Assembly (NCBI GenBank): GCA_019118985.1
Contig: DWXX01000044.1
Coordinates: 1 to 45,865 of the forward strand
From: Candidatus Faecalibacterium faecipullorum
Lineage (GTDB): Bacteria > Bacillota > Clostridia > Oscillospirales > Ruminococcaceae
DNA length: 45,865 nt
Reading direction: 5' to 3'
In this document: piece by piece, positions 7,988 to 45,655 of the stretch
How positions within the stretch are numbered: position 1 is the first letter of the stretch
How the letters are laid out: each line of letters opens with the position of its first letter
Translations under genes and position numbers: made by a program
Notes under the pieces: model-generated
Told to the model about the DNA's origin: nothing
The model's input: the letters and a program-made list of their open reading frames with translations, nothing else
The model's database searches: none

Positions 7988-9364
7988 ATGGAGTTTGAGT
8001 TCGAGCCGGACAGCCAGGAAAACGCCGGCCACACCGGCGCACAGCCCCGGCAGCCCCGGAAAATACACCGCAGCGACGGCGAGGCGTCCTCCGGCCCGGT
8101 GCCGGTGGACGGGGCGGACTTCTTCCGCCCCCGCCCCCAGGACCAGGAGCCGCCCGCCCCGCCCCCGCCCGGCCCTGCCGCCGGCGCGGGCGGCACAGCC
8201 CATCCATTCACCCGAGGTTTGACCATGCTGATCCTGACGTTGCAGGCGGCCCTGAGCGCGGCGGCCCTCTTCCAGCTTTACCGCACCCGGATGCTGCCGG
8301 GGTACTATCTGGCTATCCTGGCCGCGCTGCTGGCGCTGGTGTGGCTGCTGTTCTACAAGTGTCAGGCTTTCAAAGTGCGGGGCGCGCTGACCCGCGCGCT
8401 CTCCCTGCTGCTCAGCGCCGGGATGGCGGTGGGCTGCGTCTGGGCGCAGCAGGGCCTGGACGCCCTCGACCAGGTCACCCTTGGGGAAGAGACCGGCGGG
8501 GAAGAGGTGCTGGCCATCACCACCGAGCCCTTCGTGGTCTACCTCAGCGGGGTGGACACCCGGGGCGAGCTGACCGAGAACGCGCGCAGCGACGTGAATA
8601 TCCTGGCGGTGGTCAACCCGGTCACCAAGCGGGTGGCCCTGGTCAACACCCCGCGGGACTACTACGTCGACCTGGCCGGCACCGACGGCAAGGACAAGCT
8701 GACCCACGCCGGGCTGTACGGGGTCGAAACTTCAATGCAGACCCTCGGCAGCCTCTACGGCATCGAGGTGGACGAGTATGTCCGGATCAATTTCGCCGGC
8801 TTCATCGACATCGTGGACGCGTTGGGCGGGGTGGACGTCTACTCTGACTACACCTTCACCTCGGTGGGCAGCCCCGGCTACTACGACCCCACCGACTTTA
8901 CCGAGGGGTGGAACCATCTGGACGGCCGGGCGGCCCTCGCCTTCGCGCGGGAGCGGCACGCCTTCGCCACCGGAGACATCCAGCGGGGCATCAACCAGAT
9001 GAAGGTGATCGACGCCATGCTGGAAAAGATCAAGAGCCCCGCCCTGCTGACCGGCTACAGCCGGCTGCTGACCGCGGTGGCGGACAACTTCGTCACCAGC
9101 CTGACCTCGGCGGAAATATCCGCGCTTGTGCGGATGCAGCTGTCCGACTTTGCCGCATGGGACATCGAGAACTGCAGCGTCACCGGGGCGAGCTCGTCCA
9201 GCACCCACTGCTACTCGGCCCAGGGGCAGAAGCTGTACGTCATGACCCCCGACGAGGCGTCGGTGGAGGCCGCCAGAGCGGTCATCCAGTCGGTCCTCAG
9301 CGGCGAGGCGGCCCCCGCGCCGCAGGCCGACCCCGCAGAAGAAGCGGCCAGCGAAGCCGCCTGA
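7988..9364 (+). CDS. LytR-CpsA-Psr (LCP) family protein
   Basis: RSDVNILAVVNPVTKRVALVNTPRDYYVDLAGTDGKDKLTHAGLYG...FARERHAFATGDIQRGINQMKVI. Confidence 0.92.
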   Translation: MEFEFEPDSQENAGHTGAQPRQPRKIHRSDGEASSGPVPVDGADFFRPRPQDQEPPAPPPPGPAAGAGGTAHPFTRGLTMLILTLQAALSAAALFQLYRTRMLPGYYLAILAALLALVWLLFYKCQAFKVRGALTRALSLLLSAGMAVGCVWAQQGLDALDQVTLGEETGGEEVLAITTEPFVVYLSGVDTRGELTENARSDVNILAVVNPVTKRVALVNTPRDYYVDLAGTDGKDKLTHAGLYGVETSMQTLGSLYGIEVDEYVRINFAGFIDIVDALGGVDVYSDYTFTSVGSPGYYDPTDFTEGWNHLDGRAALAFARERHAFATGDIQRGINQMKVIDAMLEKIKSPALLTGYSRLLTAVADNFVTSLTSAEISALVRMQLSDFAAWDIENCSVTGASSSSTHCYSAQGQKLYVMTPDEASVEAARAVIQSVLSGEAAPAPQADPAEEAASEAA

Positions 9365-9378
9365 ACCACCCATGACCG

Positions 9379-9408
9379 GGCTGCGCCTTTGGGCGCAGCC
9401 TATTTTTT
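9379..9408 (+). terminator. Terminator after LCP gene
   Basis: ggctgcgcc ttt gggcgcagcc tatttttt. Confidence 0.8.
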
Positions 9409-35870: not shown

Positions 35871-37343
35871 TCACCAGAACCAATACCTCTTTTTGACCAC
35901 GATATAGACCACGACGATGGCCAGCAGGGCGACCCCCGCGGCGGCCAGCGCATAGAGATTCACGTGGATGAAGGTGAGCGTCTCGTTGGTCAGCAGATAG
36001 CGGCCGGCGGTGTCGGTGGTGATCACCCCGCCGTCGTAGCTGTTCAGGTACTGCCACTGCCCGGTGGCCTCATTGTACAGGTAGAGGCGGCTGTACCCGG
36101 CGTTGTCGCCGGTGACGGTCAGGCTGACGGTGCAGGGCATCGCGCCGCCGTCGTTGAGGGCAAACTCCACCCCATCCTGGTCGGCGCTGGGGGCAAAGGC
36201 GACCAGGGTGTCCACCACGTTCTGGGTGTTGCGGATGGCGCTGCCGTCGATGGTCAGGATATAGCCCGCGCCGGTGATGTTCATGGTCTTGCCGGTGCGG
36301 CGCAGCGCGTCCAGCATCTCAGAGGTGACGGTGGGGATATCCGCCTGCTCGAGGTTGACCAGCTCCCCCTGGGCGTCGTTGATCTGCCGGACGATGGGGT
36401 CGTCCGAGGGCGTCTCGCCGCTGCCGGGGGTGCTGCTGCCCCCATTGGAGGAGGCGCCCCCATCCGGGCTGCTGGAGGCCGCCCCGCCCTGGTTGACGAT
36501 GACCGTCACCATGCTGAGGGAGTCCCCGTTGGAGACCACGATGGAGGTGGACCCCACCCCCGCCGCCGTCACCGTGCCGCCGCCGCTGACGGTGGCCACG
36601 CTGGTGTCGCTGGAGCGGAAGGTGAGGGCCTGCGGCGCGCTGGAGGGCGAGACGCTGCCGGTGATCCGGGCTGTCTCGCCCGGCTTGAGGACCAGATAGT
36701 TGGTGTTCAGGTGGATGCCGTCGGTAGGGATATAGACGGTGACGTCCACCGTGCGGACGATGTCGCCGCAGGTGACGGTGATGGTGGCGCTGCCGCGGCC
36801 CACCGCCGTCACCCGGCCGAAGTTGTTGACCGACGCCACCGCCTCGTTGGAGGAGGCGAAGGTGACGTTGGCGGTGGCGGCCGCCGACGACGGGCTGACC
36901 GACACCGAAATGGTGGCCACGTCCCCCAGGGCGATCTCGTCTGCCGAGATGGCGGCGTCCATATCCGCCACCACGGTGGACGGGTCGGGCAGGACGGTGA
37001 TGTCGTAGTAGATGGTCACGTCGCCGGCGGTGGCCGACACCCGGGTCGAGCCCACCGACGCCGCCCCGATCAGGCCGTCCTGGCCGATCTGGACGATGCT
37101 GATGTCCTCAGAGGCGAAGGTCACCGTCTTGTTGTGGGCGTCCTCGGGCAGGACCACCGGCTTGAGCTGCTGGGTGGTGCCCACCACCATCTCGGCGTCG
37201 TAGGCGCCGGGGTCGATGCTCTCCACCTGCACCCGGCCGAAGGGCCAGGACGGCAGGTGGAGCGCGCCGGCAGGCAGGGCCGCGCCGGCGGCCAGGGCGG
37301 CCAGCAGCAGCAGCGCCGCCAGCCGTTTTGTCAGATGCTTCAT
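35871..37343 (-). CDS. Secreted, C-terminally membrane-anchored protein with bacterial Ig-like (BIG2) repeats
   Basis: Signal peptide MKHLTKRLAALLLLAALAAGAALPAGA; repeated V.FASSNEAVASVNNFGRVTAVGRGSATITV-type modules; C-terminal TM LYALAAAGVALLAIVVVYIVVKKRYWFW. Confidence 0.82.
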   Translation of the reverse strand: MKHLTKRLAALLLLAALAAGAALPAGALHLPSWPFGRVQVESIDPGAYDAEMVVGTTQQLKPVVLPEDAHNKTVTFASEDISIVQIGQDGLIGAASVGSTRVSATAGDVTIYYDITVLPDPSTVVADMDAAISADEIALGDVATISVSVSPSSAAATANVTFASSNEAVASVNNFGRVTAVGRGSATITVTCGDIVRTVDVTVYIPTDGIHLNTNYLVLKPGETARITGSVSPSSAPQALTFRSSDTSVATVSGGGTVTAAGVGSTSIVVSNGDSLSMVTVIVNQGGAASSSPDGGASSNGGSSTPGSGETPSDDPIVRQINDAQGELVNLEQADIPTVTSEMLDALRRTGKTMNITGAGYILTIDGSAIRNTQNVVDTLVAFAPSADQDGVEFALNDGGAMPCTVSLTVTGDNAGYSRLYLYNEATGQWQYLNSYDGGVITTDTAGRYLLTNETLTFIHVNLYALAAAGVALLAIVVVYIVVKKRYWFW

Positions 37344-37370: not shown

Positions 37371-38486
37371 TCAGCGTACTAAAACGCCCAAAGCCTCCAG
37401 CGCGTACTGGAAGTAGGTCACCTCGTCGTACTGGACCCGGGCGGTCACGCTCATGCCGTTGGCGAGGTCCACCTGGTCGCCGCTCTTGCTGATCAGGTAG
37501 GTGCTGTCCGGCTTGACGGTCACTTTATAGAAGGAGGTGTTGTTGGCTGTGGTCACGTCGCTGTCGATGGCGGTGACGGTGCCGGTCAGGGTGCCGTAGG
37601 CGGTCTGCGCCAGGCCGGTGATGGCGATGGTGCAGGGGTCGCCGACGTCCAGCAGGGGTCGGTCGCTGAGGGTGGCGTAGGCCACGATCTCATAGTCGGC
37701 GTTCTCGCTGGCGACGGTGGCAAGCACCGAGCCCGCCGACAGCACCATCCCGACGCTGTAGGGGGTGTCCATGTGGATGACGCCGGAGGTGGGCGCGTAG
37801 ATGTAGTAATCGTTGGCGCCGGTGCTCAGCGCGTCCAGCTGGGAGCGGAGGTTCTCGATGTTGGCCTGCACGCTGCTGACGTTCTGCGCCGCCGACTGCA
37901 GGGCGGAGTAATAGATCTGCTCCAGCTCGCTCTGGTTCTGCTCCATCATGGTCTGGATCTGCGCCTCGGTGTAGCCGGCGGCGCGGTAGGCAGACGAGTC
38001 GAAGGTGTGCTGCGCCACCTGGCTCTGGTAGCTCTCGTACTGGTAGTAATAGGTCTGGTCGGCGGGGTCCGACTCGCTGAAATAGTTGGTGTTGTCCTGG
38101 ATGGACTGGATCAGCTTGTTGTACTGGTCCAGCTGGGTCTGGTAGATGGCGAGCTGGTTTTCCAGCTGGCTGCGCTGGATGTCGATGTCGGTGCTCTTGA
38201 CATGGGCGATCAGGTCGCCCTGCTCGACATAGCTGCCCTCTGAGATGGTCAGCTCGGTGATCTGGCCCGAATAGGACGACATGATGTAGGTCTTGTTGGC
38301 AGACTGCACCGACCCCTGCAGCTGGCTGATGTAGATGCGGGGGGTGACGGTGCTCCATGCCACAAGGCCGACCATCAGCGCCGCCACGATGAGCAGCAGA
38401 GCGTACCCGTAGGGGGGCAGCTTTTTCTCCATCATGATGCGGCGGTCCTGCAGGTCGTAGAGGTTGGTGACTTTCAGGTTGGTCAT
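37371..38486 (-). CDS. HlyD-family secretion adaptor (membrane fusion protein) of peptide exporter
   Basis: MTNLKVTNLYDLQDRRIMMEKKLPPYGYALLLIVAALMVG...SSYSGQITELTISEGSYVEQGDLIAHV...YIYAPTSGVIHM. Confidence 0.85.
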   Translation of the reverse strand: MTNLKVTNLYDLQDRRIMMEKKLPPYGYALLLIVAALMVGLVAWSTVTPRIYISQLQGSVQSANKTYIMSSYSGQITELTISEGSYVEQGDLIAHVKSTDIDIQRSQLENQLAIYQTQLDQYNKLIQSIQDNTNYFSESDPADQTYYYQYESYQSQVAQHTFDSSAYRAAGYTEAQIQTMMEQNQSELEQIYYSALQSAAQNVSSVQANIENLRSQLDALSTGANDYYIYAPTSGVIHMDTPYSVGMVLSAGSVLATVASENADYEIVAYATLSDRPLLDVGDPCTIAITGLAQTAYGTLTGTVTAIDSDVTTANNTSFYKVTVKPDSTYLISKSGDQVDLANGMSVTARVQYDEVTYFQYALEALGVLVR

Positions 38487-38490
38487 ACGG

Positions 38491-38946
38491 TCAGTCCTTC
38501 TCCATAAAGACATCCACGACGGCCTCGTCGTCGTCCTGGCTGACAAAGATGGTGTAGACGCTGTTGGCGGTCTTGATGTCATGCTCGAAGGCATAGATGT
38601 TCAGCTTCTGGCCGGCCAGGTCGTTGCGGTTCATGGGGCCGACGTAGTGGGCGTACAGGCAGTTGCGCACCCGCAGCAGGGCGTCCATGTGGTACTGGGG
38701 GTCCAGCCGGGTGATCATCTGGTTGGCCTGGCGCATGATGTACATCTGGGGCTCGGGCTTGGGGCCCTTGGTGACCACCACATGCTGGATCAGCGGGCCG
38801 ATGGGCTGGGCGTTGTGGCTGCGGACAAAATTCTCCATCTGGGTGACGATCAGGGGGATATTGCCAAACTCCTCAGGCATGATGCGGCGGCTGAGCACGT
38901 TGGTCAGCTTGAGGGTCTTTGCTTCGCTTACGACAATTTCATTCAT
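38491..38946 (-). CDS. GyrI/SbmC-like (AraC effector-binding-domain-like) small protein
   Basis: 151 aa; IGPLIQHVVVTKGPKPEPQMYI...RVRNCLYAHYVGPMNRNDLAGQKLNIYAFEHDI resembles the GyrI-like pattern. Confidence 0.5.
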   Translation of the reverse strand: MNEIVVSEAKTLKLTNVLSRRIMPEEFGNIPLIVTQMENFVRSHNAQPIGPLIQHVVVTKGPKPEPQMYIMRQANQMITRLDPQYHMDALLRVRNCLYAHYVGPMNRNDLAGQKLNIYAFEHDIKTANSVYTIFVSQDDDEAVVDVFMEKD

Positions 38947-39057: not shown

Positions 39058-39095
39058 CGCGCCCGGTGGGCACGACAGACGCCGCATAAAAATAA

Positions 39096-39129
39096 GGTGC
39101 GCCAGGAGGTACTTGCCTCCTGGCACACC
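39096..39129 (-). terminator. Terminator/attenuator hairpin downstream of precursor peptide genes
   Basis: Minus: GGTGTGCCAGGAGG CAAGTA CCTCCTGGCGCACC TTATTTTTATG. Confidence 0.7.
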
Positions 39130-39146
39130 ATAACGAGGCATTTTGA

Positions 39147-39177
39147 TCTGCCCCGACCCCGTGGGGGCGGGGTCAGA
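39147..39177 (-). other. GC-rich hairpin downstream of precursor peptide genes
   Basis: CCCCGACCCC GT GGGGGCGGGG, one mismatch. Confidence 0.55.
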
Positions 39178-39232
39178 CTAAAATACACTTGCAATCGAGA
39201 TTAGAGCTGAAGCTCCGACTCAACCGGATCGA

Positions 39233-39595
39233 TTAGCCCTCGTACCACTCGACAGAGTAGCCGGCCTTCGCACTGTCAGTGCCCAGGCTGTAGATGGTAG
39301 CAATACCAGCAACTACCTGCATGGCAGTGTTGAAGAAGTCCATATTGGCAACCTTCGCGTTCATGGCAGTGCCGATGTCGCCGAACGCATAGTGGGTGCC
39401 AAAAGTGGTGCCCAGAATGCAGCTGACAAAGCTGCCCAGGAAGGTGTTGCCAATGATCTTGATCAGGTTGGTGCCGAAGGTGCGCCAATTCTCGGAGGTC
39501 ATGACCGGGGGCAGAACGTCCGCGATCACACCGCCGCCAGTGACATAAGTCAGCTCATCCTCTGCCATTACTGCGTAATTTGCAGGAAAGGTCAT
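39233..39595 (-). CDS. Double-glycine leader precursor peptide A (bacteriocin/RiPP-like), 120 aa
   Basis: Leader MTFPANYAVMAEDELTYVTGG | GVIADVLPPVMTSENWRTFGTNLIKIIGNTFLGSFVSCILGTTFGTHYAF...; paralog of neighbour; next to C39-ABC transporter. Confidence 0.8.
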   Translation of the reverse strand: MTFPANYAVMAEDELTYVTGGGVIADVLPPVMTSENWRTFGTNLIKIIGNTFLGSFVSCILGTTFGTHYAFGDIGTAMNAKVANMDFFNTAMQVVAGIATIYSLGTDSAKAGYSVEWYEG

Positions 39596-39637
39596 GATGA
39601 ACCACCTTTCTTAATTAGAATGTTTCTGACTTATATC

Positions 39638-40015
39638 TTAGTAAGTGGTGCCGTCGATCTTGACAACCTTGTCGTTGTGCAGGGTCTTGGCAGCGTTGAT
39701 GCCCAGGGTGTAGATGGCAGCAGCGGCGCCAACCCAGGACAGAACGGTGTTGCCGATGTCGTTGGGATCCCAGTAAGCCTCTTCCAGCTTAGCGCCCAGA
39801 GCGTCAGCAGAAGCATGGCCGCCGAACAGAACGCCGATGGTGGAGCTCAGCAGGGTGGGGATGGTGGTGTTGCCGATGATGGTGATCAGGTTGGTGCCGA
39901 AGGTGCGCCAGTTAGCGCTGTTCATGACGGCGGGGAAAGCATCCCAAATGTTACCGCCAGTGACGTAGGTCAGTTCGTTCTCAGCAATAGCCGAGTAGTT
40001 TGCAGGCATCATCAT
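39638..40015 (-). CDS. Double-glycine leader precursor peptide B (bacteriocin/RiPP-like), 125 aa
   Basis: Leader MMMPANYSAIAENELTYVTGG | NIWDAFPAVMNSANWRTFGTNLITIIGNTTIPTLLSSTIGVLFGGHAS...; SD aagggag 9 nt before first ATG. Confidence 0.8.
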   Translation of the reverse strand: MMMPANYSAIAENELTYVTGGNIWDAFPAVMNSANWRTFGTNLITIIGNTTIPTLLSSTIGVLFGGHASADALGAKLEEAYWDPNDIGNTVLSWVGAAAAIYTLGINAAKTLHNDKVVKIDGTTY

Positions 40016-40066
40016 AATGAATTACTCCCTTCAAATGATTGAAACGAAAATCTTTCGGCCGCCAAA

Positions 40067-40115
40067 CGGTTGCGCAACCGCCTGGTAACCATTTATGTAA
40101 CCGGGTGCGCACCCG
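40067..40115. repeat. Pair of GCGC-centred palindromes (CGGTTGCGCAACCG and CGGGTGCGCACCCG), 35 bp centre to centre
   Basis: Direct reading at 40067-40080 and 40102-40115. Confidence 0.75.
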
Positions 40116-40124
40116 ATTGCACCT

Positions 40125-42455
40125 TTAATACGTCATCGAGTCGTCATCGTCCTCTTCATCCGGGGCGGCCGTCTCGACAACGGGCTGTTTGGGCTCTTCC
40201 CGCTTGCGGAAGATGCCCTGCTGCAGGTTCCAGAGGGCGAAGTATTTGCCTTCTTTCGCCATCAGCTCATCGTGGGTACCCTGCTCCACAATGCGGCCCT
40301 CTTCCATGACCAGGATCTGGTCGCAGCCGCGGACGGTGGACAGGCGGTGGGCGACGATCAGCATCGAACGGTCGGCCAGCTGGTTGTAGATCATGTCAAA
40401 AATGGCATTCTCTGTGGCGAAGTCGAGGTTCGAGGTAGATTCGTCCAGAATATAGAGGTTCGAGTCTTTCAAAAAGGCCCGCGCCAGGGCGATGCGCTGC
40501 TTTTCACCGCCGGACAGGCCGTTGCCGGCTTCTTCCAGGTAGGTGTAGTACTGCAGCGGCAGCTTGCGGATAAACTCGTGCGCGTCCGCCTTTTTGGCGG
40601 CTTCCTTGACTTCATCGATCTTCGCGTCGGGGCGGGAGATGCGGATGTTGTCAAAGATGGTCTTGCTGAAAAGCTCGATGTTCTGCGGGACATAGGAGAT
40701 GGCGCGCCGGACCGAATCATTGGAATATTCGTTCAGGTTGACGCCGTTCACCCTGATCTCACCTGACTCCGGCTCGTAATATTTTAGCAGGAGCTTGGTG
40801 ATGGTGGACTTGCCGCTGCCCGAAGAGCCCACCAGCGCCACCTTCTTCCCCGCGGGGATGGTGAAGGAGACGTGGTCCAGCGCCGGGTTGCGGTTGCCGT
40901 ACCGGAAGGTGACGTCGCGGAATTCGATGTCGCCCTCGATCTGCTCAAGCTCGGTGTGCTCGCGCTCGTCGTCCTGCTCGGCTTTGTAGTCCATAATCTC
41001 GGTCAGGCGCTTCATCGAGATGGAAGCCTCCTGGATCTGCAGCTGCAGGTTGACAAGGTTATTCACCGGGCTGGTGAAATAGCTGGAAAGTGTGCTGAAC
41101 GCCATGAAGGAGCCGAGGGTCATATCCCCGTTCAGCACCTGGCTGATGCCTACATAGGTGGTCAGCATCGAGAAGCCGGTGGAGATCAGGCTGGTCAGCA
41201 GCGACTGCGTTGTGGACAGCTTGCTGGACCGGATGCTGATCTTGAGGCTCTTGATATACTCGCGCTCAAGGCGTTCGAGCTCGTTGTCCTCGCCGGCGTT
41301 GCACTTGATGGTCTCGATGCCGCGCAGCCCCTCGATCATCTGGCTGTTGAGGATGGACGCCTGCTGCATGGTCTCTTCGTTGATCTTCTTGTAGGGGCGC
41401 CGGTAGACCAGCACCAGCAGGATGCTGACCAGCGTCATGAACAGCGCGATCGAGAAGAGGGTGGCGTTCATCCTGAACAGGATGATGCCGGTGATGACCG
41501 CCATCGAGATGTCCATGATCAGACTCAGCGCAATGCTTGTGAAGATGGACTTGATGGTGTTGGCGTCGGAGTAGCGGGTGGTGATATCGCCCGTTTTGCG
41601 TGTGGCGAAGAACTTCATGGGCAGCTTGTAGATGTGCCCGAAGTAGCCCAGCATCATGGGGATATCTATCTTAATGGACAGATGGACCAGAATCCACTGC
41701 CGCACGAAGGTGACGAATGCGGAGGTAATGCTGACCACGCTGAATACCAAAATCAGCGTCACCAGCAGGTTCTGCAGCCCGTAGGGCAGCACCTCGTCCA
41801 TCAAGATCTTGTTGAACAGCGAGGACGCGATGCCCAGTATGGTCAGCAGCACCGAGCTGAGGATGGCGTAGGCGAACAGCTTCTTCTGCGGCCAAAGCAG
41901 GTTGACGTACCGCTTGAAGATGCTGCCCTGCTCCACTTTGCCGGGCTGAAAGTCAGCCGTCGGGTTCAAAAGCAGCAGCACGCCGGTAAAGTTCTTGTAG
42001 AATTCGTCCAGGGTCATCCGGCGCAGCTCGGTGCCGGGGTCGCCCACCACGACGTATTCCTTGTCCTTGTATTTCTCACCGGTCTTTTCGGCCTTCTCCT
42101 TGGCTTCGGTCACGCTCAGCATATGCTTGCGGCGCGCGCCTTCGTCCGGGATGGTGGTCTTTTTGAACACCACCACAAAGTGGGTCAGGCCCTGGTCGGT
42201 GATCTCCTGCGCGATGCAGGGCAGGGTAAAGTCGCTTAAAAAGTTTTCGCGGTCCACCCGCACGGCGGCGGTGGTGAACCCCAGTTCGTTTGCGGCCTTC
42301 TGCAGGCCGACGAGGTTTGTGCCCTTCAGGTCGGTGCCCATCATATCACGCAGCCGCGTGATGGTGATTTCCTTTCTGTAATGGAGGCACACCATCGCGA
42401 GACAGGCGGCCGCGCAATCTGTGGTGTCGTGCTGCCGCACATACGTATAGCGCAT
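40125..42455 (-). CDS. Peptidase C39 domain-containing ABC transporter (PCAT/bacteriocin exporter)
   Basis: TTDCAAACLAMVCLHYRKEITITRLRDMMGTDLKGTNLVGL (C39 Cys), THFVVVFKK (His), VVVGDPG (Asp), ABC ATPase GSSGSGKSTITKLLLKYYEPESGEI...GLSGGEKQRIALARAFL. Confidence 0.95.
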   Translation of the reverse strand: MRYTYVRQHDTTDCAAACLAMVCLHYRKEITITRLRDMMGTDLKGTNLVGLQKAANELGFTTAAVRVDRENFLSDFTLPCIAQEITDQGLTHFVVVFKKTTIPDEGARRKHMLSVTEAKEKAEKTGEKYKDKEYVVVGDPGTELRRMTLDEFYKNFTGVLLLLNPTADFQPGKVEQGSIFKRYVNLLWPQKKLFAYAILSSVLLTILGIASSLFNKILMDEVLPYGLQNLLVTLILVFSVVSITSAFVTFVRQWILVHLSIKIDIPMMLGYFGHIYKLPMKFFATRKTGDITTRYSDANTIKSIFTSIALSLIMDISMAVITGIILFRMNATLFSIALFMTLVSILLVLVYRRPYKKINEETMQQASILNSQMIEGLRGIETIKCNAGEDNELERLEREYIKSLKISIRSSKLSTTQSLLTSLISTGFSMLTTYVGISQVLNGDMTLGSFMAFSTLSSYFTSPVNNLVNLQLQIQEASISMKRLTEIMDYKAEQDDEREHTELEQIEGDIEFRDVTFRYGNRNPALDHVSFTIPAGKKVALVGSSGSGKSTITKLLLKYYEPESGEIRVNGVNLNEYSNDSVRRAISYVPQNIELFSKTIFDNIRISRPDAKIDEVKEAAKKADAHEFIRKLPLQYYTYLEEAGNGLSGGEKQRIALARAFLKDSNLYILDESTSNLDFATENAIFDMIYNQLADRSMLIVAHRLSTVRGCDQILVMEEGRIVEQGTHDELMAKEGKYFALWNLQQGIFRKREEPKQPVVETAAPDEEDDDDSMTY

Positions 42456-42545
42456 AGATGTTTCCTTTACAAGAGATACACGGGGCGAAGGGCCGCCATC
42501 TCTTTGAGAATGTATGATGATTTTATTCCAATGGACTATGGACAC

Positions 42546-43032: not shown

Positions 43033-43054
43033 ATATCACAGCTTTGCGAGAGGT

Positions 43055-43083
43055 ATTCTACCACACCCGCCGCCATTTTGCAA
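43055..43083 (-). promoter_or_regulatory. tRNA-Asn promoter TTGCAA-N17-TAGAAT
   Basis: Minus-strand reading; predicted start about 16 nt before the tRNA. Confidence 0.7.
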
Positions 43084-43163
43084 GGGGGAGCGGGAAAAAA
43101 GCGGCCGCCGCCGCCCCTTCGCCCTTTTTCCCGCCGGGGGCGGGGTATGCTGGATGGCAGGGG

Positions 43164-44027
43164 GTGACGGCGGTGCGGGTGCTGTATCTGGATGAGCTGC
43201 TGCTGGTGAATTTTGCGGCGGGGGCGGCCTTTCTGCTGGCGGCGGGGCTGCTGGCGGGGGTGCGGTGCAGCGGGCCGCGGCTGGCTGCCGGGGCGGCCCT
43301 TGCGGCGGCCAGCTGCCTTGTCCTCCTTGCGCCCGAGATGGGGGCCCTGCCCGCCCTGGCCTATAAGGCAGCGAGCGGGGCGGGGGCGGCCGCCCTGGCC
43401 TACGGCTGGCCGGGGGGGCGGGTGTTCGGGCGGCTGTGCGGGTGGTACCTGGCCCTCAACCTGCTGCTGGCGGGGGCGGCGGGCCTTGCGCCGGGGGGCC
43501 ATGCGGCCAACCTCACCGCCTACCTGGACATCACCCCGGGGCGCTTGCTGGCCGGGACGGCGGCGGTCTACATAGGGGTGCGGGGTCTGCTGGCCTTTTT
43601 GGGCAGGCCGGGGCGCGCCGCCGTCCCCGCCCGGCTGGAGCTTGCCGGCGGCGCGGTGGATGTGCTGGCCTACTACGACAGCGGCTTCACCCTGGCCGAC
43701 CCGGTGTCGGGGCGGGGGGTGGTGCTGGTGCGGTACGGCGCGGTGCGTGACGCCCTGCCCGCAGACTGCCGCGCCTGCCTGGACGCCGTCTTTGCCGGCG
43801 AGGCGCCAGCGGGCCCGGCTTTGGGGCTGCGGTACCTGTGCTGCGGCACCATCGCGGGGCGCACCCTGCTGCCCGCCCTGCCGGCGGCCGCCCTGAACCG
43901 CGCCGCCGGGCCCCGCAGCTGGCGGGCCGAAGGGCTGCTGGCGGCCTTCTGCCCCGGGGACGCCGGCGAAGGGGAGGGCTGGACGCTGCTGCTGGGCCCG
44001 GGGCTTGCCGGGCAGATGGGCCTGTGA
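43164..44027 (+). CDS. spoIIGA: Sigma-E processing peptidase SpoIIGA
   Basis: VRVLYLDELLLVNFAAGAAFLLAAG..., multi-TM, aspartyl-like YYDSGFTLADPVSGRGVVLV; directly upstream of sigE. Start GTG 43164 or 43173. Confidence 0.85.
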   Translation: MTAVRVLYLDELLLVNFAAGAAFLLAAGLLAGVRCSGPRLAAGAALAAASCLVLLAPEMGALPALAYKAASGAGAAALAYGWPGGRVFGRLCGWYLALNLLLAGAAGLAPGGHAANLTAYLDITPGRLLAGTAAVYIGVRGLLAFLGRPGRAAVPARLELAGGAVDVLAYYDSGFTLADPVSGRGVVLVRYGAVRDALPADCRACLDAVFAGEAPAGPALGLRYLCCGTIAGRTLLPALPAAALNRAAGPRSWRAEGLLAAFCPGDAGEGEGWTLLLGPGLAGQMGL

Positions 44028-44062
44028 GGGCCGCCGCAGATCGCATAGGGGAGGAACTGTAT

Positions 44063-44773
44063 ATGCTGCATTGGTTCAAAACGCTCAGAAGCCTGTGGGT
44101 GCGGCTGCTGCGCCGGGCGGGGGCATGGGGGTCGGCCCACGCCATCGGGGGCGGGCCCAGCCTGCCCGCCCCCCTCGCCCCCGAGGAGGAGAAGGCCCTG
44201 CTGGCCCAAATGGCCGCCGGCGACCGCGCCGCCCGGGACGAGCTGATCTGCCGCAACCTGCGGCTGGTGGTCTACTTATCCAAAAAGTTCGAGTCCAGCG
44301 GGGTGCCCCCCGAGGACCTGGTCTCGATCGGGACCATCGGGCTGATCAAGGCGGTCAACACCTTCACCCCGGGGCGGAACATCAAGCTGGCCACCTACGC
44401 CAGCCGCTGCATCGGCAACGAAATCCTGATGTACCTGCGCAAAACCAGCGCCCGCCGGCAGGAGGCCAGCATCGACGAGCCCCTCAACGTGGACAGCGAC
44501 GGCAACGAGCTGCTGCTGTCCGACGTGCTGGGCAGTGAGGACACGGTGGGCCAGCGCCTGGAACAGGACGCCGAGCGGGCGGTGCTGCGCCGTCAGCTGG
44601 CCCGCCTGCCCGAGCGGGAGCGCCGGATCATGGAGCTGCGCTTCGGCCTGGTGGACGGGGTGGAGCGCACCCAGAAGGAAGCCGCCGACGCCATCGGCAT
44701 CAGCCAGAGCTACATCTCCCGGCTGGAAAAGCGGATCATCCGCGACCTGCGCCGCCAGCTGGAAAGCGAGTGA
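44063..44773 (+). CDS. sigE: RNA polymerase sporulation sigma factor SigE (with pro-sequence)
   Basis: CRNLRLVVYLSKKFESSGVPPEDLVSIGTIGLIKAVNTFTPGRNIKLATYASRCIGNEILMYLRK. Confidence 0.94.
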   Translation: MLHWFKTLRSLWVRLLRRAGAWGSAHAIGGGPSLPAPLAPEEEKALLAQMAAGDRAARDELICRNLRLVVYLSKKFESSGVPPEDLVSIGTIGLIKAVNTFTPGRNIKLATYASRCIGNEILMYLRKTSARRQEASIDEPLNVDSDGNELLLSDVLGSEDTVGQRLEQDAERAVLRRQLARLPERERRIMELRFGLVDGVERTQKEAADAIGISQSYISRLEKRIIRDLRRQLESE

Positions 44774-44881
44774 GCAGTCCCCCCGCCCGGCGCGGCAGGG
44801 CAAATTTCCCATCCGCGCCGGTGCATGAGGGGGCGGGGCGGGGGCCATACTTCCGGTGACAACGATACCGGGAGGCACAGG

Positions 44882-45655
44882 ATGTACAACAAGGTGGAGC
44901 TGTGCGGCGTCAATACCGCCGAGCTGCCCGTCCTCTCTGAGGAGGAAAAGCGCGCCCTGCTGACCGCCGCCCGCGCCGGGGACGCCGGGGCCCGCCGCCG
45001 GATGATCGAGGGCAACCTGCGGCTGGTGCTGAGCGTGGTGCAGAAGTTCGCGCAGCGGGGCGAGAATCTGGACGATCTGTTCCAGGTGGGGTGCATCGGG
45101 CTGATCAAGGCCATCGACAACTTCGACCCCGGGCTGGACGTCCGGTTCTCCACCTACGGGGTGCCGATGATCGTGGGGGAGATCCGGCGGTTCCTGCGGG
45201 ACAACAACGCCCTGCGGGTCTCCCGCTCGATGCGGGACACCGCCTGCCGCGCCATGCAGGCGCGGGAACAGCTGGAAAAGTCCCTCGGCCGGGAGCCCAC
45301 CCTCGCCGAAGTGTGCGGGGCGGTGGGCCGCCCGCAGCGGGAGGTGACCGCCGCGCTGGAATCGGTGGTGGAGCCCCTCAGCCTGGAGGAACCACTGGGC
45401 GGCGGCCCCGACGCGGTCTATCTGATGGACCAGGTCAGGGACACCGACGGCGAGGACAGCTGGATCAGCGCCCTGGAGTTCCGGCAGACGGTGCAGGGCC
45501 TGTCCGAGCGGGAGCGCCGGATCATGGAGCTGCGCTACTTTTTGGGCCGCACCCAGATGGAGGTGGCCCGGGAGATCGGCATCAGCCAGGCGCAGGTCAG
45601 CCGGCTGGAAAAGGGCGCCCTGGCGCAGTTCCGCCGCGTCGGGCAGGAAAGCTGA
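44882..45655 (+). CDS. sigG: RNA polymerase sporulation sigma factor SigG
   Basis: MYNKVELCGVNTAELPVLSEEEKRALL...NLRLVLSVVQKFAQRGENLDDLFQVGCIGLIKAIDNFD. Confidence 0.94.
   Translation: MYNKVELCGVNTAELPVLSEEEKRALLTAARAGDAGARRRMIEGNLRLVLSVVQKFAQRGENLDDLFQVGCIGLIKAIDNFDPGLDVRFSTYGVPMIVGEIRRFLRDNNALRVSRSMRDTACRAMQAREQLEKSLGREPTLAEVCGAVGRPQREVTAALESVVEPLSLEEPLGGGPDAVYLMDQVRDTDGEDSWISALEFRQTVQGLSERERRIMELRYFLGRTQMEVAREIGISQAQVSRLEKGALAQFRRVGQES

Follow-up and report, generated by a model that had tools for sequence, protein, structure and literature searches.

MAM, the "microbial anti-inflammatory molecule", is one of the main candidates to explain how Faecalibacterium counters inflammation. Clans A-J of F. 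prausnitzii and the A2-165 MAM of F. duncaniae have been described previously (PMC8836110, PMC12184118). In F. duncaniae, MAM is the most abundant envelope protein, nearly all of its peptides lack the first 21 residues, and a surface lattice with six-fold symmetry has been attributed to it; the docking to PCAT, a C39-peptidase ABC transporter, and the MAM hexamer presented in the same study are models (PMC12184118). The published mam context comprises PCAT, a three-ORF cluster with HlyD and Ig proteins, sporulation genes and tRNAs, and two divergent mam genes near one PCAT have been reported in the strains L2-6 (clans G/H) and APC923/61-1 (clans I/J) (PMC8836110).

In this paper, we report the analysis of a contig of 45,865 nucleotides from Candidatus Faecalibacterium faecipullorum (DWXX01000044.1; hereafter, the window), in which two adjacent minus-strand genes, A and B, encode proteins with Gly-Gly (GG) leaders. 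Judged by their sequences, the two are members of the Faecalibacterium MAM family arranged in tandem. MAM is a known family of exported envelope proteins; the real novelty of the locus is B, an old, conserved and distinct second paralogue in tandem that carries its own leader. A literature search limited to open-access papers returned no earlier account of the A/B pair.

The tandem pair and the MAM family

The MAM-A precursor (39638..40015, minus strand) has 125 aa, of which residues 1-21 are the leader (39953..40015, MMMPANYSAIAENELTYVTGG) and residues 22-125 the mature part of 104 aa. The MAM-B precursor (39233..39595, minus strand) has 120 aa, with the leader at residues 1-21 (39533..39595, MTFPANYAVMAEDELTYVTGG) and a mature part of 99 aa at residues 22-120. 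The initial annotation had placed both GG-leader ORFs correctly while omitting the strand, and its count for the leaders was exact, as these are identical at 15 of 21 positions and each ends in Gly-Gly. The 42-nt spacer between the genes (39596..39637, minus strand) holds the conserved AAGAAAGGTGGTT ribosome-binding stretch of B; each gene has such a stretch, AGGGAG 5' of A and AAAGGTGG 5' of B. Identity between A and B is 47% for the whole proteins and 42% for the cores alone, the latter far above chance (z = 15.5 against shuffled cores), which bears out the proposal that the two are tandem paralogues with leaders of the GG type; they are likely export substrates. The block NWRTFGTNLI(K/T)IIGNT is indeed shared at 15 of 16 residues. 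The C-terminal G(I/A)A.IY(S/T)LG segment is likewise present, with A one residue off the proposed register (GAAAAIYTLG in A, AGIATIYSLG in B).

Profiles built from A and B retrieve the A2-165 MAM of F. duncaniae. The retrieved protein (L040, genome G300) was recognised as A2-165 MAM by its length of 135, by identity to the published residues 1-42 and by identity to two further published MAM peptides, one of which is GNTFLQSTINRTI. Its core is only 34% identical to that of A (z = 12.6) and 31% identical to that of B (z = 9.4). The MAM profile has matches in 26 Faecalibacterium genomes at E < 1e-20, and the search with A returned 13 related loci, every one of them with Faecalibacterium in its title. 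Outside this genus, there was no solid match to A among 299 genomes of the family (the two weak ones were a leader-only match and a permease), nor did plasmid sequences match the pair. In the genomes searched, MAM is thus restricted to Faecalibacterium, with two phage-record matches besides.

A and B resemble A2-165 MAM and clans A-J in having a 21-aa GG leader, a core of about 100 aa with shared invariant positions, an adjoining PCAT, HlyD/Ig cluster and sporulation genes, and a distribution confined to Faecalibacterium in the genomes searched. They differ in that both genes lie in tandem to one side of PCAT and in the MTFPAN leader of B. The leader of A fits the published motif MMMPANx(8,11)VxGG whereas that of B fails it, although B is MAM-like in the remainder of the leader and in the core; we therefore term B a MAM paralogue and not a MAM by the published motif. 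A screen with this motif would overlook leaders of the B type. Within B, the leader is invariant at 19 of 21 positions across nine species, varying at position 10 (I/M) and position 19 (T/N). The two-mam strains also have two divergent MAMs near a single PCAT, but their mam genes flank PCAT, in L2-6 as published and in APC923/61-1 (L021 among our loci), whereas those of the window are adjacent; moreover, both leaders of APC923/61-1 begin with MMMPAN, while B of the window belongs to a separate clade with MTFPAN.

A matched GxxxG motif had also been pointed out, GVLFGGH in A (39815..39835, minus strand; residues 61-67) and GTTFGTH in B (39392..39412, minus strand; residues 62-68). These do occupy aligned columns and the motif is found in both members of all nine A/B pairs. 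Across 23 aligned family members, however, only the first G and the F are invariant while the second G and the H vary, several MAMs lack the motif at this site and GxxxG is wholly missing from A2-165 MAM, so the motif does not define the family.

Two further database matches were taken as chance, namely Pfam DUF389 on B (E = 0.008, below the cut-off) and PDB entries at E = 0.26. One of the two phage records, MT835749.1 (L117), is titled 'Bacteriophage sp.' and contains a full Faecalibacterium mam neighbourhood with the same two MAMs as APC923/61-1, and is therefore read as a mis-filed piece of Faecalibacterium chromosome. A phage or plasmid origin of the pair was rejected, given the nature of this record, the one of the two that was examined, and the lack of a plasmid match.

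Gene neighbourhood and non-coding elements

PCAT (40125..42545, minus strand) scores 583.6 bits against TIGR01193, for which the cut-off is 523.85, and is the sole C39 protein found in the window's genome (83% complete). Upstream of it lie a tRNA and, at 43044..45655 on the plus strand, genes in conserved order that are taken to be SpoIIGA-, SigE- and SigG-like. Downstream of A and B is the adaptor operon on the minus strand, of which the first gene encodes p151 (38491..38946), a conserved protein of 151 aa with no match in the Pfam, NCBIfam or PHROG families. This is followed by a HlyD-type adaptor (37371..38486), for which the listed ORF starts at 38594 and the start at 38486 is preferred because it removes the overlap with p151, and by a protein with three Big_2 Ig-like domain matches (35871..37343), beyond which lies GlmS. 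The order SigG-SigE-SpoIIGA / PCAT-A-B-p151-HlyD-Big2-GlmS recurs in the related loci L013-L025, several of which are cut by contig ends and one of which (L024) has GlmS moved. With its sporulation sigma genes, PCAT, MAM, small ORF, HlyD and Ig-domain protein, the window agrees with the published mam context (PMC8836110).

The region between the PCAT stop and the start of A (40016..40124, minus strand) is a putative structured 5' RNA or operator, with two covarying hairpins followed by an invariant ribosome-binding stretch. In 18 distinct sequences (alignment A3), 97.5% of the cells pair as against 22-44% in slid controls, a measure favoured by the derivation of the structure from the same alignment. 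Ten pairs are changed on both sides, in 41 cells compared to 13 in shuffles. A model of the structure finds strong matches only upstream of PCAT-linked mam genes, which suggests an element that may act either as RNA or as operator DNA. The gap of about 110 nt agrees with published work that places the start of mam transcription 110 bp upstream (PMC8836110).

A terminator-like hairpin of 14 bp (39096..39129, minus strand) stands 3' of B and closes the PCAT-A-B unit; A and B are encoded behind their exporter, probably on one message. The terminator scan by itself is no evidence, having found one site where shuffles gave a mean of 1.5, and the evidence lies in conservation across species. Surrounding the hairpin is a highly conserved non-coding element (39093..39210, minus strand) that contains TGCCTCGTTATGGTGTGCCAGGAGGC and is present as one copy in each of 25 of the 31 Faecalibacterium genomes, while a reversed control had no match. 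In two loci whose mam gene is located elsewhere in the genome (L072 and L075), the element is still found between PCAT and the p151-HlyD operon. A pairing of TGCCTC with GAGGCA inside the element, noted by eye, makes an attenuator possible; the element varies too little for covariation to be informative. Against Rfam, only tRNA scored above the gathering score and neither the 5' element nor the terminator element was matched, so that both are without a match to any described family. The covarying 5' RNA and the single-copy terminator element offer leads on how so abundant a protein is controlled.

This arrangement bears on the original inference of a large two-peptide toxin, according to which A and B would be an oversized class IIb bacteriocin that jointly permeabilises membranes through GxxxG helix packing. 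The GG leaders, the adjoining C39 ABC exporter, the neighbouring position of the two genes, the GxxxG of all nine pairs and the fast protein evolution of A and B (see below) are all in keeping with it. However, class IIb mature peptides have about 25-60 aa, far fewer than the 99-104 aa found here, and no immunity gene is present between PCAT and the next operon, the gap between B and p151 being the conserved non-coding terminator region. No curated bacteriocin model was matched (PF10439: E = 0.2, 12.1 bits against a cut-off of 27.1). Moreover, only one mam gene is found at several loci, the homologue abounds in the envelope and A2-165 MAM lacks GxxxG. On these grounds, the class IIb assignment was rejected and the bacteriocin reading of the pair is not supported; we regard it as very improbable. 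The alternative raised at the same time, a surface or adhesion-type pair, fits membership of the MAM family.

Age and diversification of the second paralogue

B is present in the window and in eight related loci (L013-L020), which together represent nine species, and each time it directly follows A. In the tree, B forms a single clade (support 100/99), while A falls among the classical MAMs; a clade of A alone (p-AU 0.11) and one that unites A with B (p-AU 0.09) are each neither shown nor rejected. Identity between the B proteins of different species is 61-73% (alignment A5), compared to 44-47% between B and the A of its own locus. B is one clade in nine species and lies closer to foreign B than to the A beside it; the duplication is therefore not recent but older than these species. 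The species that carry B are mostly poultry-derived, the titles indicating poultry for several and not all of them giving a source. Only one MAM is found in other poultry-named species (L024 and L025), and what the pair marks is thus a lineage and not all poultry species.

The median dN/dS between species is highest for A (0.72), followed by B (0.38), the Ig protein (0.28), p151 (0.14), HlyD (0.11) and PCAT (0.07); the pairs behind these medians are not independent and have a broadly similar dS, and the values do not show positive selection. The much higher values of A and B relative to PCAT and HlyD are what would be expected if the cargo is exposed and the machinery that handles it is conserved. 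For B, dN is lower than dS in 28 of 28 comparisons.

The two genes of the window share an identical run of 28 nt, compared to 11-19 nt in the eight related pairs, and the near-identity of the 16-residue block is therefore partly local to the window's genome. In L018, A (9001-9381) contains a B-like stretch at about residues 15-35. Together, the long run and this stretch suggest gene conversion. One may hence ask if B is mainly a redundant duplicate that serves as a conversion donor for the diversification of A, giving variation of the phage-receptor or antigen type. The two traces of conversion and the faster evolution of A would accord with such a role, as would the chicken MAG described below, but B is intact in nine species, is constrained by the dN/dS measures given above and has a conserved leader and ribosome-binding stretch. 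We consider a mainly donor role quite unlikely; the constraint and the conserved leader and ribosome-binding stretch indicate that B is in all likelihood produced as a working protein.

In that chicken MAG (L020, 9001-9342), A lacks its GG site, some twelve residues being missing in frame, while the adjoining B is intact. The loss could be real or an assembly fault.

Probable export and place in the envelope

Of 31 Faecalibacterium genomes, 26 have both MAM (E < 1e-20) and a full-length PCAT and the other five have neither, a co-occurrence with a naive p of 5.9e-6 that ignores kinship, three of the five negative genomes being less than 90% complete. A weaker and different C39 match was seen in one genome (G082). 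Each of the 26 genomes has a single full PCAT, and in each the leader profile retrieves 3-8 proteins. In the window's genome, the five proteins retrieved are A, B, a pair on a second contig (C93) and one on a third (C33). With several leader-bearing proteins and one PCAT per genome, one transporter probably serves several cargo families, and the GG leader here would then mark an export class and not a bacteriocin.

The best explanation of the locus, and one that we hold to be highly probable, is that A and B are a MAM-family pair exported by PCAT into the envelope. PCAT would bind the leaders of both precursors, cut after Gly-Gly and export the helical cores of about 100 aa, probably with the HlyD adaptor. 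By homology (31-34% core identity), A and B would then become envelope coat proteins; A would be a classical MAM that diversifies rapidly, and B, under tighter constraint, either a second subunit or a minor component of the coat. If host NF-kB signalling is affected, this would follow at a second level. Structure prediction, which had been suggested as a check, yielded three helices for each protein, at 33-63, 70-81 and 88-107 in A and at 34-65, 71-82 and 87-105 in B; the AlphaFold2 monomer models are poor, with a pLDDT of only 47 for A and 46 for B. The predicted helices lie at places similar to those of the published MAM, 37-70, 74-86 and 100-119 (PMC12184118), which at this model confidence is weak evidence for a shared layout.

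The same pair could instead be exported mainly as host-directed immunomodulators that inhibit NF-kB, with the envelope as incidental storage or display. Inhibition of NF-kB has been seen with several MAMs expressed in human cells, and in mice two MAMs gave protection from colitis, one more than the other (PMC8836110). However, the cell assays placed MAM cDNA inside host cells, one MAM was inactive, and the released peptides resemble degradation products (PMC12184118). A structural role in the cell accounts no less well for two divergent copies kept next to an exporter, and we judge a primarily host-directed function to be unlikely.

With regard to the coat proposed for an exported MAM-family pair, the lattice attributed to MAM in F. 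duncaniae is a likeness to S-layer proteins. The differences are the predicted export by PCAT after GG cleavage rather than by Sec and the size of about 12 kDa, and domain-model searches found no known S-layer domain in A or B. The conserved B provides a way to ask what MAM does, namely whether two subunits make up one coat, which of them diversifies and if a single exporter serves all the proteins with such leaders. A tentative possibility is that, in this one lineage, A and B are obligate partners that share one message and one PCAT and co-assemble into a two-component lattice, in which A would be the variable face seen by phages and the host and B the constrained structural partner.

Further GG-leader families with MPANYN..., YPEHF... 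and LPASY... leaders, often in tandem pairs or triplets, were also observed, and no description of them was found in the literature searched. Proteins with leader matches are encoded at 1926-2174 and 2255-2668 on the minus strand of L106 and at 1641-2045 on the plus strand of L107, with more in L108-L116.
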